NCBI GenBank assembly: GCA_030645235.1
Contig: JAUSMV010000032.1
Location: forward strand, 1 to 64,000
Source: Parvibaculum sp.
GTDB taxonomy: Bacteria > Pseudomonadota > Alphaproteobacteria > Parvibaculales > Parvibaculaceae
Direction of reading: 5' to 3'
DNA length: 64,000 bases
The first letter of the stretch is position 1; every line of letters begins with the position of its first letter. The notes under the pieces were generated by a model. It had not been told where the DNA came from. It searched no databases and worked only from the letters and a program-made list of their open reading frames with translations. Shown in pieces: positions 7,906 to 15,278 of this stretch. Made by a program: the position numbers and the translations under genes.

Positions 7906-9828
7906 ATGCAGCAATCTCACCTGCGTTCCGGCTACCGAATTGCTATGCTTGTGTTGCTGGCGATTTTCTTCCTCTCGATCAATCTCTTTTCCAATATCGT
8001 TTTTCGTTCCGCACAAGTTGACCTGACGCAAAGCAAGCTCTTTACGCTGTCACAAGGTAGTGAAAACGTGCTCGGCAAGATCGATGAGCCGGTTACACTC
8101 AAATTTTTCTTTTCAGAAAGCCTCGCTAACGAATATCCGCAAATCCGCACCTATGCAGGCCGCGTCCGCGATTTGTTGCAGGAGATCCGTGACCGCTCAC
8201 AGGGAAAGGTGATCCTTGAAGTCATCGACCCGGAGCCTTATTCAGGTGACGAAGATCTCGCCATGTCACTTGGTCTCAAAGGCGCGCGAACAACTGAAGG
8301 TGACATTATTTATTTTGGTCTTGTCGGCACCAATCTTGCCGACGGCATTGAGCAGATCCCATTCTTTGCAGATGAGCGTCAGCAATATCTTGAGTACGAC
8401 GTGACGCGCCTCATTCAGAACCTGAGCCGTTCGAAAAAACCTGTGCTTGGTATTGTGACCAACCTGCCGATGGATACGGGAGCCGGCGGTCTGATGGAGG
8501 CGATGCGCGGTCAGTCAAAGCCTTATATGATCTATGAGGAATTACGGAACCGTTTTGAGATCAATTTTCTTGAGCAGAATTTCGTGAAGGTGCCTTCAGA
8601 CGTTGACGTGCTGATGATCGCTCATCCGCGCCCGCTTAACGAAAGCACGCTCTACGCAATAGATCAGTTTGTCGTGCGTGGCGGCCGCGCGCTGGTCGCT
8701 GTTGATCCTCATTCGGAAGTAAGCCTCACATCGGGCGGTGACGGGACGCCGGTGCAAGGTTTTACTGAAGCGTCCAACCTTGAGCCCTTGCTCAAAGCTT
8801 GGGGCATTGACTTTAAACCCAACCATATTGTTGGCGACCGTAAACTTGCTATGCGTGTGGCCACGGGTCTTGATGCGCGCCGTCAGACGAGCGACTACGT
8901 GCTGTGGCTCACTGTGCCGCGTGACAATCTTGATCATGATGACATTGTTACCGCCAATATTGACCACCTCAATCTCGCGACAGTGGGAGAGCTTGCGCCG
9001 GTAAGTGGCGCGGCAACGCAATTTACGCCGCTCTTTTGGTCGTCCGATGAATCGGAGGTTTACGATCTGCCGTTCGTGAAATCAGGCCCGACACCGGATG
9101 AGTTGCTTGAAAACTTCAAATCATCCAATGCGCGCCATGTGATTGCTGCGCGGGTGTCCGGCCCGATCAAGAGTGCTTTTACGGCCGCACCTGCCGCTTC
9201 ATCCGGCCCCGATATTTCCAAACGCTCTGACAGCAGTGAGCAGCCCGAAGTTTACGAAGCGCAGACAAAGAGTGATGCCAATATTATTGTCGTTGCGGAC
9301 AGTGATCTTTTTGATGATCGCTTTTGGGTGCAGACACAGATCTATGAAAATGAGCGTGTGGCCGAGCCGATTGCTGATAATGCGCAGTTCGTTTTGTCGG
9401 CTATCGACAATTTAATGGGGTCGGATGATCTCATCTCGCTGCGCGCGCGCGAACGCACCGACAGGCCGTTTGTAGTAGTGGATAATCTGCGCCGCGCGGC
9501 GGATAGGCATTTTCTCGCCGAGCAGCAGCGTCTGAAGGCGAAGATAGCAGAAACCGAACAACGTCTCACGGCCTTGCAAACAGCGGCGGGTGAAACGCCT
9601 TCGGTCAATGCACAGGAAGAAGCAACGGCCTTCCGCGCCGAACTTCTTGCGAGTCGCAAGGCGCTACGTGATGTTCAGCGCGATCTGCGTCGCGATATCG
9701 ATACGCTTGCCGCACGTGTGCGCTTTGCCAATGTGGCACTTGTCCCCATTGCTGTTGCTTTCGTCGCTATAGGCTTTGCCATCTTGCGCCAGCGCCGCCG
9801 CAAAGCGCGTGCAGCCAAAGGAATTTGA
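7906..9828 (+). CDS. GldG-like protein (ABC-type uncharacterised transport system domain)
   Basis: About 640 residues. One transmembrane helix near residues 10-30 is followed by VDLTQSKLFTLSQGSENVLGK, typical of the GldG/ABC_transp_aux family. A long extracytoplasmic part follows, with a helical segment rich in Glu, Gln and Arg near residues 540-600 (probable coiled coil), a C-terminal transmembrane helix and a basic tail RQRRRKARAAK. An in-frame GTG at 7897 would overlap the permease stop; ATG 7906 has AGGG at workable distance and is preferred. The protein probably sits outside the membrane as a ligand- or peptidoglycan-facing accessory of the ABC-2 pump; its activity is unknown. Confidence 0.85.
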   Translation: MQQSHLRSGYRIAMLVLLAIFFLSINLFSNIVFRSAQVDLTQSKLFTLSQGSENVLGKIDEPVTLKFFFSESLANEYPQIRTYAGRVRDLLQEIRDRSQGKVILEVIDPEPYSGDEDLAMSLGLKGARTTEGDIIYFGLVGTNLADGIEQIPFFADERQQYLEYDVTRLIQNLSRSKKPVLGIVTNLPMDTGAGGLMEAMRGQSKPYMIYEELRNRFEINFLEQNFVKVPSDVDVLMIAHPRPLNESTLYAIDQFVVRGGRALVAVDPHSEVSLTSGGDGTPVQGFTEASNLEPLLKAWGIDFKPNHIVGDRKLAMRVATGLDARRQTSDYVLWLTVPRDNLDHDDIVTANIDHLNLATVGELAPVSGAATQFTPLFWSSDESEVYDLPFVKSGPTPDELLENFKSSNARHVIAARVSGPIKSAFTAAPAASSGPDISKRSDSSEQPEVYEAQTKSDANIIVVADSDLFDDRFWVQTQIYENERVAEPIADNAQFVLSAIDNLMGSDDLISLRARERTDRPFVVVDNLRRAADRHFLAEQQRLKAKIAETEQRLTALQTAAGETPSVNAQEEATAFRAELLASRKALRDVQRDLRRDIDTLAARVRFANVALVPIAVAFVAIGFAILRQRRRKARAAKGI

Positions 9829-9830
9829 GC

Positions 9831-10919
9831 ATGACATTTTCATTGGGCGCCATGCGGTCAAACAAACCTTTGCGTAATCTTGTCTTGTTGGGGGTTCTGA
9901 CGGGTCTCACAGTGGCGGCGTCAATTGCGGCGGTTTCGGTGCAGGAGCGTAGCGTGCAGGCGAAGTTTGTGCCTGAGCCGATGTATCCCGGTCTTGAGAC
10001 GGGACTCGATAAGGTTTCGAAGATTGTTTATATGCTGCCACGTGGCATGCGGGACCCCGAGAAAATCACGCTGACGCGTAATGCTAATAATCAATGGGTG
10101 GTCACGGAGCGTAAGGATTATCCCGCCGATCAGGACCTTGTGCGCAAAGCATTGATCGGTGTGTCGGAATTGCAGCTTTATCAGCCTCGCACGGCGCGCA
10201 AAGAATGGCTGCGGGAACTGGGACTTTTAGAGCCTGAGAATTTAGGTAAAGCCGTACGCGTTGAGTTTTTCGATAAGGATGGCGTAAAAGTTGTTTCGCT
10301 GCTTGCGGGTAAAGTGCCGGAGCAGACAACAGACGCACGCGGACAGGGTATGATTTATGTGCGTCGCGACGGTGAGGACCAGAGCTGGTTGGCGCGAGGG
10401 CGCCTGCCGTTGGCGCAGACCGCGCAGGACTGGCTTGATCAGAAATTTCTTGACGTGAAACGCGATGATATTCGTAAGCTGACTTTGTGGGAGGGTACGG
10501 ACCATCCGGTTGTTATGTCGCGCTTGTCGGCCGACGCTAATGATTTTTCTATCGAGAATGTACCAGCGGGACGCGTGACGCGGGGTGCGCCCATCGTCAA
10601 CGGATCGGCAACCGCGATTGTTGATATGAATTTTGAAGATGTGGTGCCGATTGCATCATTTGATTTTCCTGAGAGTTCGCCCAAAGCCGTTTTTGAACTT
10701 TTTGATGGGACAAAACTCACGCTCATCATCACGGGTGGTGGCGGGGCCTTGTGGACGAAGATCGTGGCGGAAGGTGCCCCGGATACGGAATCCGGTAAAC
10801 GCGCGGGCGTGCTCAATGCGCGTCTTGCACCCTGGGCTTATAAGCTCACGAAGGATGCGGGCGGGCAGCTCACGCAATCGATGGATCTGCTCACACATGA
10901 AGGCGGTTTGCCTGAATAG
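9831..10919 (+). CDS. DUF4340 domain-containing protein
   Basis: About 362 residues. An N-terminal membrane anchor (NLVLLGVLTGLTVAASIAA) precedes an extracytoplasmic region with the DUF4340 repeat pattern: LPRGMRDPEKITLTRNAN..WVVTERKDYPAD, and WLARGRLPLAQTAQDWLDQKFLDV. DUF4340 genes commonly follow GldG-like genes in proteobacteria, which fits this position. ATG 9831 follows AAAGGA at eight bases; TTG 9825 overlapping the previous stop is the alternative. Last gene of the operon, followed by a terminator. Role unknown, presumably a partner of the GldG-like protein. Confidence 0.85.
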   Translation: MTFSLGAMRSNKPLRNLVLLGVLTGLTVAASIAAVSVQERSVQAKFVPEPMYPGLETGLDKVSKIVYMLPRGMRDPEKITLTRNANNQWVVTERKDYPADQDLVRKALIGVSELQLYQPRTARKEWLRELGLLEPENLGKAVRVEFFDKDGVKVVSLLAGKVPEQTTDARGQGMIYVRRDGEDQSWLARGRLPLAQTAQDWLDQKFLDVKRDDIRKLTLWEGTDHPVVMSRLSADANDFSIENVPAGRVTRGAPIVNGSATAIVDMNFEDVVPIASFDFPESSPKAVFELFDGTKLTLIITGGGGALWTKIVAEGAPDTESGKRAGVLNARLAPWAYKLTKDAGGQLTQSMDLLTHEGGLPE

Positions 10920-10946
10920 TTTTTTTCGGTTTTATTAAGACACCAA

Positions 10947-10977
10947 AAAAGGCGCCTCCCGAAGGAAGCGCCTTTTC
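10947..10977. terminator. Bidirectional terminator between the DUF4340 gene and acnA
   Basis: AAAAGGCGC and GCGCCTTTT arms (about 10947-10955 and 10968-10976) flank a short interrupted inner stem. The A run on one side and T run on the other let it serve both convergent transcripts. Confidence 0.85.
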
Positions 10978-10995
10978 ATTTGTTTGCGTGTTGGC

Positions 10996-13900
10996 TTACG
11001 CCGCGAGACGACGCAACACGTATTGCAGGATGCCGCCATTGGCATAGTAGTCGAGCTCGTCTTGTGTATCGATGCGAGCGGTTACGTCGACCACTTGCTT
11101 GGAGCCATCGGTGCGTTCGATGATGAGCTTCACTTTGGCGCGCGGTGTGACGCCTTTGAGGCCTTCAACCGTGATGATTTCAGACCCATCAAGACCGAGG
11201 GTCTGCCAGCTCATATCGCCGATGAATTGCAAGGGTGCGATGCCCATGCCGACAAGGTTTGAGCGATGGATGCGCTCAAAGCTCTGGGCGATGACGGCTT
11301 TGACGCCGAGAAGCATCGTGCCTTTGGCGGCCCAGTCGCGCGACGAGCCCGTGCCGTATTCTTTGCCGGCAAAGATCACGAGCGATGTGCCGCGACGTTT
11401 ATATTCCATCGCTGCGTCATAGATCGGCATTTGCGTGCCTTCGGGCTCAAGCTTGGTGAGACCACCTTCAACGCCGTTCAGCATCTGGTTCTTGATGCGG
11501 ATATTGGCAAATGTGCCACGCATCATCACTTGATGGTTGCCGCGACGGGCGCCGTAGCCGTTGAAGTCCTGTGCGCCGACCTGTTTGGAAATCAGGTAGG
11601 AGCCAGCGGGGCTTGAGACTTTGATGTTACCAGCAGGTGAGATGTGGTCAGTTGTGATCGAGTCGGCAAAGAGACCTAGGATGCGCGCCTTGTTCACATC
11701 TTCAAGTGGTGTGAGAGTTTTCTTAAGACCTTCGAAATAGGGCGGGTTCTGAACGTAGGTTGATTCACCGTCCCAATCATAAGTCAGGCCGCCCGTGACT
11801 TTGATGCTCTGCCAGTTGGCATCGCCGTCAAAGACGTTGGCATAGCGGTTGCGGAACATTTCAGGTGTTACGCAGGCACGCACTGTGTCGGCGATTTCCT
11901 GTGTCGTTGGCCAGATGTCTTTCAAATAGACAGGCTGCCCATTGGAGCCGGTGCCAAGTGGCTCAGTGGTGAGGTCGATTTGCGTCGAGCCCGCGAGTGC
12001 ATAAGCGACAACGAGTGGTGGCGAGGCGAGATAATTTGCCTTCACATCCGGTGAGACGCGGCCTTCGAAGTTGCGGTTGCCGGAGAGTACGGCCGATGCC
12101 ACGAGATCGTGTTTCGCGATCGTCTGGCTGATTTCGACCGGCAGTGGGCCTGAATTGCCGATGCAGGTTGTGCAGCCGTAACCCACGAGATCAAAGCCCA
12201 ACGCGTCGAGATCGGCTTGCAGGCCTGACTTTGTGAGGTAGTCGGTAACAACCTGTGAACCAGGTGCGAGTGATGTTTTCACCCAAGGTTTCACCTGCAA
12301 GCCGAGCTTGCGTGCGTTGCGGGCGACGAGGCCTGCTGCCACGAGCACACTTGGGTTCGACGTGTTGGTGCAGGACGTGATCGCGGCAATGACGACGTCG
12401 CCATGACCGAGATCGTAGTCCTTGCCTTCAACAGCGACGCGTGTGGAGGCCTGGCCGGGCTTGCCGAATTCACCGGCAAGCGAGACGCCGAAGCTCTTGG
12501 CAACGTCGGTGAGGGCCACGCGGTCCTGCGGGCGCTTGGGGCCTGCAAGACTCGGAACGACAGATGAGAGGTCGAGTTCGAGCGTGTCAGTGAAGATCGG
12601 ATCGGGTGAGTTCTTTTCACGGAACATGCCCTGAGCTTTTGCATAGGCTTCGACAAGAGCGACGCGTTCTTCCGAGCGGCCCGTGGCGCGCAGGAACTTA
12701 AGTGTTTCACCGTCCACGGGGAAGAAGCCGCAAGTTGCGCCATATTCCGGGGCCATATTTGCGACGGTGGCGCGATCTTCGAGCGTGAGATTGTCGAGGC
12801 CGTTGCCGAAATATTCGACGAACTTGCCAACGACGCCCTTCTTGCGCAGCATCTGCGTGACGGTAAGGACCATGTCAGTTGCGGTTACACCTTCGGAGAG
12901 CTTGCCTGTGAGCTTGAAGCCGATGACCTCGGGAATGAGCATGGAGACGGGCTGGCCGAGCATGGCCGCTTCCGCTTCGATGCCGCCGACGCCCCAGCCG
13001 AGAACCGCAAGGCCGTTGATCATGGTCGTGTGACTGTCTGTGCCGACGCAGGTGTCGGGGTAGGCGATTTCTTCTTTGCCTTCGGTCTTGGTCCAGACAG
13101 TCTGTGCGAGATATTCGAGATTCACCTGATGGCAGATGCCTGTCCCCGGGGGAACCACGCGGAAATTATTGAAGGCTTTTGAACCCCAGCGCAGGAACTC
13201 ATAGCGCTCACGGTTGCGGCTATACTCAATTTCGGTATTCTCGTGAAAAGCCTGCGGTGTGCCGAACTTGTCCACCATGACCGAGTGATCGATAACAAGA
13301 TCGACGGGCACGAGCGGGTTGATCTTTGTCGGATCGCCTCCGAGTGTCTTCACAGCGTCGCGCATGGCAGCGAGGTCGACTACGGCGGGAACGCCGGTGA
13401 AGTCCTGCATCAGCACACGGGCGGGTCGATAGGCGATTTCACGATCAGAGGTGCGTGATTTCAGCCATGACTTTACAGCTTTGATGTCATCGGCAGTGAC
13501 CGTGCGACCGTCTTCAAAGCGCAAAAGGTTTTCGAGAAGCACTTTGAGCGAATAAGGAAGACGTGCTGTACCGGGCAGGCCGTTTTTCTCGGCGACTTTA
13601 AGGCTGTAATAAGTGTAGCTGCGCTTGCCGACTTTCAGAGTTTGTTTGGCACCATAGCTGTTGCTCATCGAAGCTTTGGCTTTTGTTGCCTTCTTGGCTG
13701 CAGGTTTTTTCGGAGCGGCTGATTTCGCGGCGATTTTCGATGCCACTTTCTTTGCAACTGATTTTTTAGGTGCTGCCTTTCGGGCGATTGCCTTTTTCGG
13801 CGCGGCCTTCTTTGCTGCGACTTTTTTCGGCGCTGCTTTTTTCACGGCTGACTTTTTAGGAGCGATTTTTTTTGCTGCCGGTTTTTTGGAAACGGGATTC

Positions 13901-14247
13901 TTCGCTATTACCCTCTTGGCGGCCGGCTTTGCCTTTTTTGCGATAGCTTTTTTAGCAACGGGCTTTTTCTTGGGGGTTATTTTTTTTACAGCTGCTTTTT
14001 TAGGAGCGGTTTTCTTTGGGGTGGCTTTTTTGCCGACGGCTTTCTTCGCAGTCGACTTTTTCACGGATATCTTCTTGGCGGCTGTCTTTTTTGCCGGTGC
14101 CTTCTTAGCCACGGGCTTTGCCGCTGTTTTTGCCTTCTTAGCGATTGGCTTCTTTGCCACAGGCTTTTTCGCAACGGGCTTTACTACCGGTTTTGCGCTT
14201 GCCTTTTTCGCTTTTGGTTTGGCCTTAGCCGGGGCCTTCTTCGCCAT
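10996..14247 (-). CDS. acnA: Aconitate hydratase A with a 193-residue histone-H1-like N-terminal tail
   Basis: From ATG 14247 the frame is open for 1083 residues. Residues 194-1083 (from Met at 13668) are a normal-length AcnA, about 890 residues. The [4Fe-4S] cysteines are in [13 protein letters not shown] and [13 protein letters not shown], and HALRF-like C-terminal swivel motifs [16 protein letters not shown] are present. It isomerises citrate to isocitrate in the TCA cycle. The first 193 residues are repeats of [12 protein letters not shown] type, over one third Lys, with no acidic or aromatic residue, like histone H1 or bacterial AlgP/Hc1 tails. GAGGAAC lies seven bases before ATG 14247, whereas Met 13668 has no clear ribosome site, so the tail is probably translated. 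An internal start giving plain AcnA remains possible. Confidence 0.9.
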
Positions 14248-14453
14248 GGATTGTTCCTCGATGATGCGTGCCTGAAGGGGGGTGATGAAGGGCGGCAATT
14301 TCAAATCGCTGCCGTTTTCGCTGCCTTTGGGCCTATATGCTTGACGAACGAGACTATAAAGTCTTTCCCATGTGAAGGCTATGGTTTGACCAGTCGCAAT
14401 CGCGTGATAATCGCTCACAATTAGAGCGATAAAAATGACAAGGGGGAATGACT
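14248..14453. promoter_or_regulatory. Divergent intergenic region between acnA and the crotonase gene
   Basis: 206 bases with no gene. It must carry promoters for both directions. The aconitase frame stays open to 14418 on the minus strand, but nothing supports translation from there. I see no clear operator. AGGGGG at 14441-14446 is the ribosome site of the crotonase gene. Confidence 0.4.
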
Positions 14454-15278
14454 ATGAGTGTCGTGCGCGTTGAAAAATCTGGTCCCGTGACGACTGTAAT
14501 CCTGTCGCGTCCCGATGTGCGTAATGCGGTGGACAGACCAACGGCGAAAGCTTTGGCTGACGCCTTCCTCTCATTTGAAGCAGATGAGGATGCGCTTGTT
14601 GCTGTATTTGCTGGAGACAATGGTGTTTTTTGTGCGGGTGCCGACCTCAAAGCTGCAGCAGCGGGTGGCGAAGGTGCCGACGGACGGCGTGGTAATCAGA
14701 TTAAGCAGCCGGGCATCTCGCTCGGCTTTGACCGTCTTGCCGCTGATGGTCCGATGGGACCGTCGCGTATGGTGCTTACAAAACCCGTAATTGGCGCGAT
14801 TGCCGGTTTTGCTGTCGCGGGTGGGCTTGAGCTAGCGCTTTGGTGCGATATGCGCGTGGTAGAGGAAGATGCGCAAATGGGTGTCTTTTGCAGGCGCTGG
14901 GGTGTGCCATTGATTGATGGTGGCACAGTGCGCCTTCCGCGCCTTATTGGTCATTCGCACGCGATGGATCTTATTCTGACTGGTCGCGCTGTGGGGGCCG
15001 CCGAAGCGCTTGCGATGGGCCTTGCCAATCGTGTGGTGGGTAAGGGGCAGGCGCGGGCCGAGGCTGAAAAGCTTGCCGCTGAGATTGCGCGCTTCCCGCA
15101 AAATTGTCTCAAGGGTGACCGGATGTCAGCTTATGAGCAGTGGGATTTGGCCTATGATCAGGCGATGGCCAATGAATTTGCGCATGGGATTGTCGTGCTT
15201 TCGACCGGTGAAACAGTGAAAGGCGCGGCGCGTTTTGCGGCGGGCAAGGGACGGGGCGGGCGGTTTGACGAAATCTGA
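14454..15278 (+). CDS. Crotonase / enoyl-CoA hydratase family protein
   Basis: 274 residues. Oxyanion-hole segments FCAGADLKAAA and AGFAVAGGLELALWCDM are present, the latter carrying the equivalent of Glu144 of rat enoyl-CoA hydratase. The segment aligned with GQPE164 reads GVFCRRWGVP, so the second catalytic Glu is absent (Cys at that place). The reaction may therefore not be simple hydration. ATG 14454 is taken because AGGGGG lies at proper spacing; ATG 14448 would be too close. Divergent from acnA, and its 3' end overlaps the probable TTG start of ccmA. Physiological substrate cannot be told. Confidence 0.85.
   Translation: MSVVRVEKSGPVTTVILSRPDVRNAVDRPTAKALADAFLSFEADEDALVAVFAGDNGVFCAGADLKAAAAGGEGADGRRGNQIKQPGISLGFDRLAADGPMGPSRMVLTKPVIGAIAGFAVAGGLELALWCDMRVVEEDAQMGVFCRRWGVPLIDGGTVRLPRLIGHSHAMDLILTGRAVGAAEALAMGLANRVVGKGQARAEAEKLAAEIARFPQNCLKGDRMSAYEQWDLAYDQAMANEFAHGIVVLSTGETVKGAARFAAGKGRGGRFDEI

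Follow-up and report, generated by a model that had tools for sequence, protein, structure and literature searches.

The closest described systems, as given in the accessible parts of the papers cited here, are proteins with histone H1-like tails on the one hand and nucleic-acid-binding or fused aconitases on the other. The AlgP and PhaF proteins of Pseudomonas resemble the AcnA reported here in that a long, disordered and strongly positive Lys/Ala/Pro tail is fused to another domain; peptides of the AlgP tail bind DNA, and PhaF is thought to do the same (PMC9239181). In AlgP and PhaF, however, it is the C terminus that bears the tail, and the domain joined to it is no metabolic enzyme, whereas the AcnA tail is N-terminal on an enzyme, and AlgP has 25 perfect KPAA units (PMC9239181) against 3 in the AcnA tail. 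In actinobacterial TopA, H1-like lysine repeats are likewise appended to an enzyme and stabilise it on DNA, and such repeats have been noted for the TopA of Caulobacter and Bordetella as well (PMC7398561); TopA, however, acts on DNA and carries its tail at the C terminus, while aconitase does not act on DNA and carries it at the N terminus. The closest functional parallel comes from yeast mitochondria, where two metabolic enzymes are linked to the nucleoid: the aconitase Aco1 has an mtDNA-binding function separate from catalysis, and Ilv5, which belongs to amino-acid biosynthesis, can bind DNA in vitro (PMC7463775). The accessible part of that source does not mention an H1-like tail for Aco1 or Ilv5, whereas the AcnA described here is tailed. 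Moreover, fission yeast Aco2, in which aconitase is fused to the mitochondrial ribosomal protein bL21 (PMC11431987), shares with the present AcnA a naturally fused partner linked to nucleic acid, but that partner is a ribosomal protein instead of a disordered H1-like tail. Hc2 and separate H1-like proteins (PF07382) have the composition of the AcnA tail, but are separate proteins.

H1-like tails and DNA- or RNA-binding aconitases are thus both known; what appears to be new, in the literature searched, is their combination, its conservation throughout a family and the presence of a second tailed enzyme, ArgJ. No AcnA with an H1-like tail was found described in the open-licence literature (articles without their supplements), which agrees with the original prediction, whose author knew of none.

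The tailed acnA gene and its product

The window, which is the whole 64,000-nucleotide stretch of Parvibaculum DNA that was analysed, contains the following features:

10996..14247, minus strand: acnA coding sequence, 1083 amino acids plus stop (from translation; the relatives read agree on the start)
14254..14259, minus strand: Shine-Dalgarno-like GAGGAA ahead of ATG 14247 (from sequence; duplex energy -5.9 kcal/mol)
13669..14247, minus strand: N-terminal H1-like tail, residues 1-193, rich in Lys/Ala/Pro, net charge +74, predicted to be disordered (composition, Pfam HC2, pLDDT)
13666..13668, minus strand: ATG within the frame where the tail meets the enzyme (residue 194), with no ribosome site; the other 31 sequences checked lack it
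10999..13668, minus strand: AcnA enzyme body, residues 194-1083 (TIGR01341, alignment with 3sn2, invariant Cys)
10945..10977, no strand assigned: inverted repeat flanked by runs of A and T, in the gap that separates acnA from the convergent gene at 9825-10919 (read from sequence)

The acnA frame (14247-10996, minus strand) is free of stops over 1083 residues, and its translation start is predicted at ATG 14247, where the ribosome-site duplex energy is -5.9 kcal/mol, compared with -0.1 at Met 13668; the start codons of 32 tailed acnA genes have energies of -5.4 to -9.3. An ATG no more than 15 codons from the tail/enzyme junction was found in one of the 32 genes, that of the window's genome alone, and 16 of them have neither ATG, GTG nor TTG within 15 codons of the border. 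Since start codons at the border are mostly missing, the enzyme could hardly be made without its tail. Translation beginning only at Met 13668, which would have undone the proposed fusion, was rejected because the ribosome site is missing there and the ATG is lost in 31 of the 32 genes. GTG 14418, the mechanical start of the open reading frame, was rejected as well, as the upstream frame is not common to the relatives read whereas ATG 14247 is, and a sequencing error as the source of the fusion was ruled out by the same frame in 34 genomes.

At the other end of the gene, the inverted repeat at 10945-10977 is perhaps a terminator common to both convergent genes. A terminator-like site was also called at 10968-10956 on the minus strand, in a scan that counted 9 sites over the region, where shuffled sequences gave 6.4 (sd 2.5), while the promoter scan gave no sigma-70-like promoter in 10900-14500. 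Antisense to the tail, the plus strand of the window (13661-14275) contains a 204-residue open frame rich in Phe and Ala, which is probably a mirror of the Lys/Ala codons and not a gene.

Residues 194-1083 are a complete AcnA, predicted to have aconitase activity. The protein matches TIGR01341 over residues 210-1081 with 1379.6 bits (cut-off 945), residues 228-1082 align with the cytoplasmic aconitase 3sn2, and Cys 626, 692 and 695, which we take to be the Fe-S cluster ligands, are invariant in a 25-sequence alignment. The body also aligns to IRP1 entries, as would any AcnA; the yeast Aco1 is an aconitase of the mitochondrial type and not of this AcnA/IRP1 type. In the window's genome (86 contigs), two PF00330 proteins were found, AcnA and LeuC (TIGR00170, 815.4 bits against 560.25), which leaves AcnA as the sole aconitase found there.

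The tail (residues 1-193) consists of 37% Lys, 29% Ala and 11% Pro, and a composition count gave no D/E, no F/W/Y and no Cys. In the AlphaFold2 model, which is modest overall (mean pLDDT 66.1, 25 sequences), the pLDDT of residues 1-190, taken in blocks of ten, is 29-34, and these residues have no secondary structure. Pfam HC2 (PF07382) scores 57.1 bits for the tail alone and 47 for the whole protein, passing the gathering cut-off of 40, although this score possibly comes from composition alone. The cut-off of the NCBIfam Hc2 model (NF038052) was missed (44.4 against 135 bits), so the tail is not filed as Hc2, and that of the NCBIfam Burkholderia H1 model was missed too (38.5 against 80). Apart from HC2 and two aconitase domains, no domain was found in the protein by Pfam. 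The original prediction of a 193-residue H1-like tail, more than one third lysine and devoid of acidic and aromatic residues, joined in frame to a complete AcnA behind a good ribosome site therefore holds for this gene.

Conservation and recurrence of the AcnA tail

A search of AcnA homologues for N-terminal lysine tails, as had been proposed together with the original prediction, was carried out in 38 genomes of the family (f1, taken as Parvibaculaceae, with five genera), comprising 27 of the Parvibaculum genus (26 matched) and 11 of g2-g5 (11 matched). All 34 readable acnA genes, from five genera, have the in-frame tail, and neither a stop nor a separate gene between tail and enzyme, an arrangement that would have spoken against the fusion, occurs in any of these 34. 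The other family genomes are G009, G019 and G020, which gave fragments without a start, and G014, without a match at the threshold. Tails were measured in 32 genomes, with G029 (start in unread bases) and G027 (a change of frame within the enzyme body) set aside. These 32 tails range from 145 to 275 aa and together comprise 6,595 residues, with 39% Lys, 33% Ala, 10% Pro, 11 acidic residues, no aromatic residue and net charges of +58 to +112. The tail of G027, measured apart, has 227 aa, 4 acidic residues and a net charge of +67. In this genome, the only one of g2, the frame changes inside acnA (L294, near 2000), with the tail and the first 222 enzyme residues in one frame, which reflects either an assembly error or a mutation. 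Parvibaculaceae was the only family to appear in an order-level AcnA search of 29 genomes.

Both the sequence and the length of the tail drift fast among relatives. Among the 32 tails, the 16 closest pairs show 141/94/660 differences by codon position and a dN/dS of 0.03-0.24, values drawn from pairs that are not independent and from a protein-guided alignment that lowers dN. The sole ungapped pair, G007/G013, has 9, 6 and 22 differences by codon position and a dN/dS of 0.19. For the enzyme bodies, long enough for comparison in 15 of the 16 pairs, dN/dS was 0.028-0.073, and the tails thus evolve faster than the bodies. These patterns show that the amino-acid make-up of the tail is under selection and kept as protein, with a looser constraint than on the enzyme.

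Outside the family, 13 of 80 named loci (L045-L057) are tailed and 66 are untailed, while L058 starts within the gene; the last 40 upstream residues contain at most two Lys in the untailed loci, against at least nine in the tailed ones. The untailed loci come from Roseibium, Stappia, Pelagibacterium, Mesorhizobium, Brucella/Ochrobactrum, Methylocystaceae, Beijerinckiaceae and others, and 12 of the 13 tailed loci are records of family genomes already counted. The thirteenth, L057, lies on a contig that is labelled Phenylobacterium and has a Parvibaculum-like tailed AcnA; this contig is probably mis-binned.

Tailed AcnA was also found in f68, a distant alphaproteobacterial family, in 11 of the 14 readable genomes (16 searched). 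These tails have 37-127 aa and occur in all nine genomes of genus g137 as well as in G506 and G501, while G104, G500 and G509 are without a tail; G507, without a start, and G508, without a match, were unreadable. In a tree of 31 AcnA bodies, Parvibaculaceae forms one clade (100/98) that sits in a group with nine untailed relatives (100/100), f68 falls outside that group, and within f68 the tail needs three changes (midpoint root). Two separate gains, one in f68 and one in Parvibaculaceae, are the simplest reading and probably the right one, and one gain followed by many losses is a possible alternative.

Class-level and phylum-level N-termini were chosen among the matches listed and not at random, so rarer tailed cases could be missed. 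A set of 20 class-level N-termini, picked among the matches listed and most of them for long frames, contained 4 full tails (all f68), 1 short one (f13) and 15 without any; a long open frame alone was accordingly rejected as a sign of a tail. In 20 further class-level N-termini, picked for upstream reach or high score, there were no full tails, 4 short Lys-rich starts (G148 and G278 of f13; G127 and G266 of f91), 1 minimal start (G049) and 15 without. At the phylum level, 332 of 396 genomes matched, and the 8 N-termini chosen among the matches listed were without a tail. The short Lys-rich AcnA starts of families f13 and f91 have about 20-40 residues; short or minimal starts of this kind were seen at L138, L246, L247 and L263 (f13) and at L251 and L252 (f91), and are possibly early stages of a tail or separate gains.

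Other tailed proteins

A filter for 30-residue stretches rich in Lys and poor in acidic and aromatic residues was applied to 429 ORFs of at least 100 aa, from 464 kb (12%) of the window's genome. AcnA, RsfS and CarD were the three that passed, which rules out tails on every protein and, together with the in-frame tail in 34 of 34 readable family genes, indicates that the AcnA tail is not a product of chance. RsfS (L285:11954-12748) and CarD (L281:7987-9324) of this genome have long N-terminal extensions rich in Lys/Ala/Pro, TopA is tailed at its C terminus, and an H1-like protein encoded separately is present as well. In addition, ArgJ (C24, L182:20-1513) carries an 88-residue N-terminal Lys/Ala/Pro tail. 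ArgJ was matched in 36 of the 38 family genomes, and in all of the 30 loci fetched and read, Lys makes up at least 20% of the 35 residues preceding the body. The Lys-rich stretches of ArgJ span 36-114 residues, with the start chosen roughly, and the shortest (36-47) belong to the three g3/g4 loci read.

Further cases were met in single genomes. In G035 (L195, L203, L213), trigger factor and a wax-ester synthase/DGAT have C-terminal Lys-rich tails, and CarD has an N-terminal one that spans unread bases. The PPDK of G186 in f68 (L190:1-1644) has an N-terminal Lys-rich tail, and the same genome has a tailed AcnA. In this partial survey, nine kinds of tailed protein were counted, five linked to DNA, RNA polymerase or the ribosome and four metabolic, namely AcnA, ArgJ, the wax-ester synthase/DGAT and PPDK. 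The TCA-cycle genes of the window, sdhA, sdhB, mdh, sucA, sucB, sucC and sucD, are untailed; none of the seven passes the filter, and Lys accounts for at most 12% of the first 60 residues of their products.

This selective occurrence bears on the suggestion that Lys/Ala/Pro repeats merely grow by slippage and are tolerated at exposed ends, with little function beyond solubility or stability. Such growth would suit the tails on several proteins of the window's genome, the range of AcnA tail lengths (145-275) and the lysine repeats in TopA of other GC-rich bacteria (PMC7398561, accessible part). It nevertheless appears rather unlikely, given that the AcnA tail is kept in 34 of 34 readable genomes of five genera, that acidic residues amount to 11 in 6,595 and changes are mostly synonymous, that AcnA's own ATG is lost in 31 of 32 genes, and that the seven TCA-cycle genes are untailed and only three of the 429 sampled ORFs pass the filter.

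The tail alone also looks like the H1-like proteins that these genomes encode separately, as would be expected if the chain were cut after translation, one gene thereby yielding an H1-like peptide and an ordinary aconitase. We hold this to be very improbable, for many of these genomes already possess separate H1-like genes and the border sequences, judged by eye, vary.

Possible roles of the tail

The reading that we prefer, with a probability of roughly one half, is that the tail, a disordered polycation, attaches aconitase to nucleic acid, and probably to the nucleoid. The tail would bind nucleic acid through charge, without sequence preference, and would hold aconitase, and the similarly tailed ArgJ, on the nucleoid or on RNA/polysomes; the docked aconitase would work in place, where it may also shield DNA or make it more compact, a role that yeast Aco1 fills in a different way. 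Docking is suggested because the tail is H1-like in composition and matches HC2, and because like tails are present on TopA, CarD, RsfS and trigger factor. The nucleic-acid affinity of the original prediction thus gains indirect support, from composition, from the 57.1 bits of HC2 and from these tailed companions, while the binding itself keeps the standing of a proposal; no binding, localisation or proteomic data for a tailed AcnA were found in the open-licence literature. Several observations count against docking: a polycation will bind polyanions of every sort, which gives DNA no special place, four of the nine tailed kinds are metabolic, so the company points more than one way, and 3 of the 14 readable f68 genomes are tailless. 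Furthermore, the fast drift of the tail suits a loose as well as a specific function, and the tails on DGAT and PPDK speak somewhat against a purely nucleic-acid role.

The same charge might instead make the tail a general polyanion anchor for polyphosphate/PHB granules or condensates, and both aconitase and ArgJ would then collect at storage granules. AlgP, which has a KPAA tail similar to that of AcnA, is located on polyphosphate granules and needs its tail for their spacing (PMC9239181); like PhaF, it connects granules with DNA. PHB storage is predicted for P. lavamentivorans (PMC3368416), and the wax-ester synthase/DGAT of G035 is tailed. We nonetheless regard a granule anchor as unlikely, as five of the nine tailed kinds are linked to DNA, RNA polymerase or the ribosome and the Pfam domains of AcnA are confined to the two aconitase domains and HC2.

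An RNA-binding arm, through which aconitase would become a post-transcriptional regulator upon loss of its cluster, would follow the idea raised with the original prediction, drawn from IRP1 and bacterial AcnA. The body is of the IRP1/AcnA type, and both AcnA and AcnB of Escherichia coli bind RNA. Cytosolic aconitase in its apo form, IRP-1, binds mRNAs (PMC11431987). A permanent, sequence-indifferent polycation, however, gives by itself neither cluster-dependent nor message-specific binding. In addition, the tail of ArgJ is similar, and ArgJ has no Fe-S cluster, which makes such a regulatory arm doubtful and, in our view, quite improbable.

Returning to docking on nucleic acid, a broader and more tentative extension, which we put at clearly less than an even chance, is that Parvibaculaceae and, independently, f68 could dock chosen central enzymes on the chromosome or polysomes via H1-like tails (aconitase and ArgJ; aconitase and PPDK in f68). 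This would be a bacterial counterpart of the yeast mitochondrial Aco1/Ilv5, and might couple citrate and arginine metabolism to the state of the nucleoid through a modifiable lysine tail.

It is difficult to study metabolic enzymes that moonlight on DNA or RNA, since a single fold serves both binding and catalysis. In this protein, the putative binding part is a separate, removable tail on what is apparently the sole aconitase of the organism; an enzyme stripped of the tail should still be intact, and it thus becomes directly testable whether a TCA-cycle enzyme is located on the nucleoid, and for what reason. The tail is kept across a family with cultured members, including P. indicum and P. 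sedimenti, and it recurs in f68 and on ArgJ, as one would expect of a device and not of an accident.
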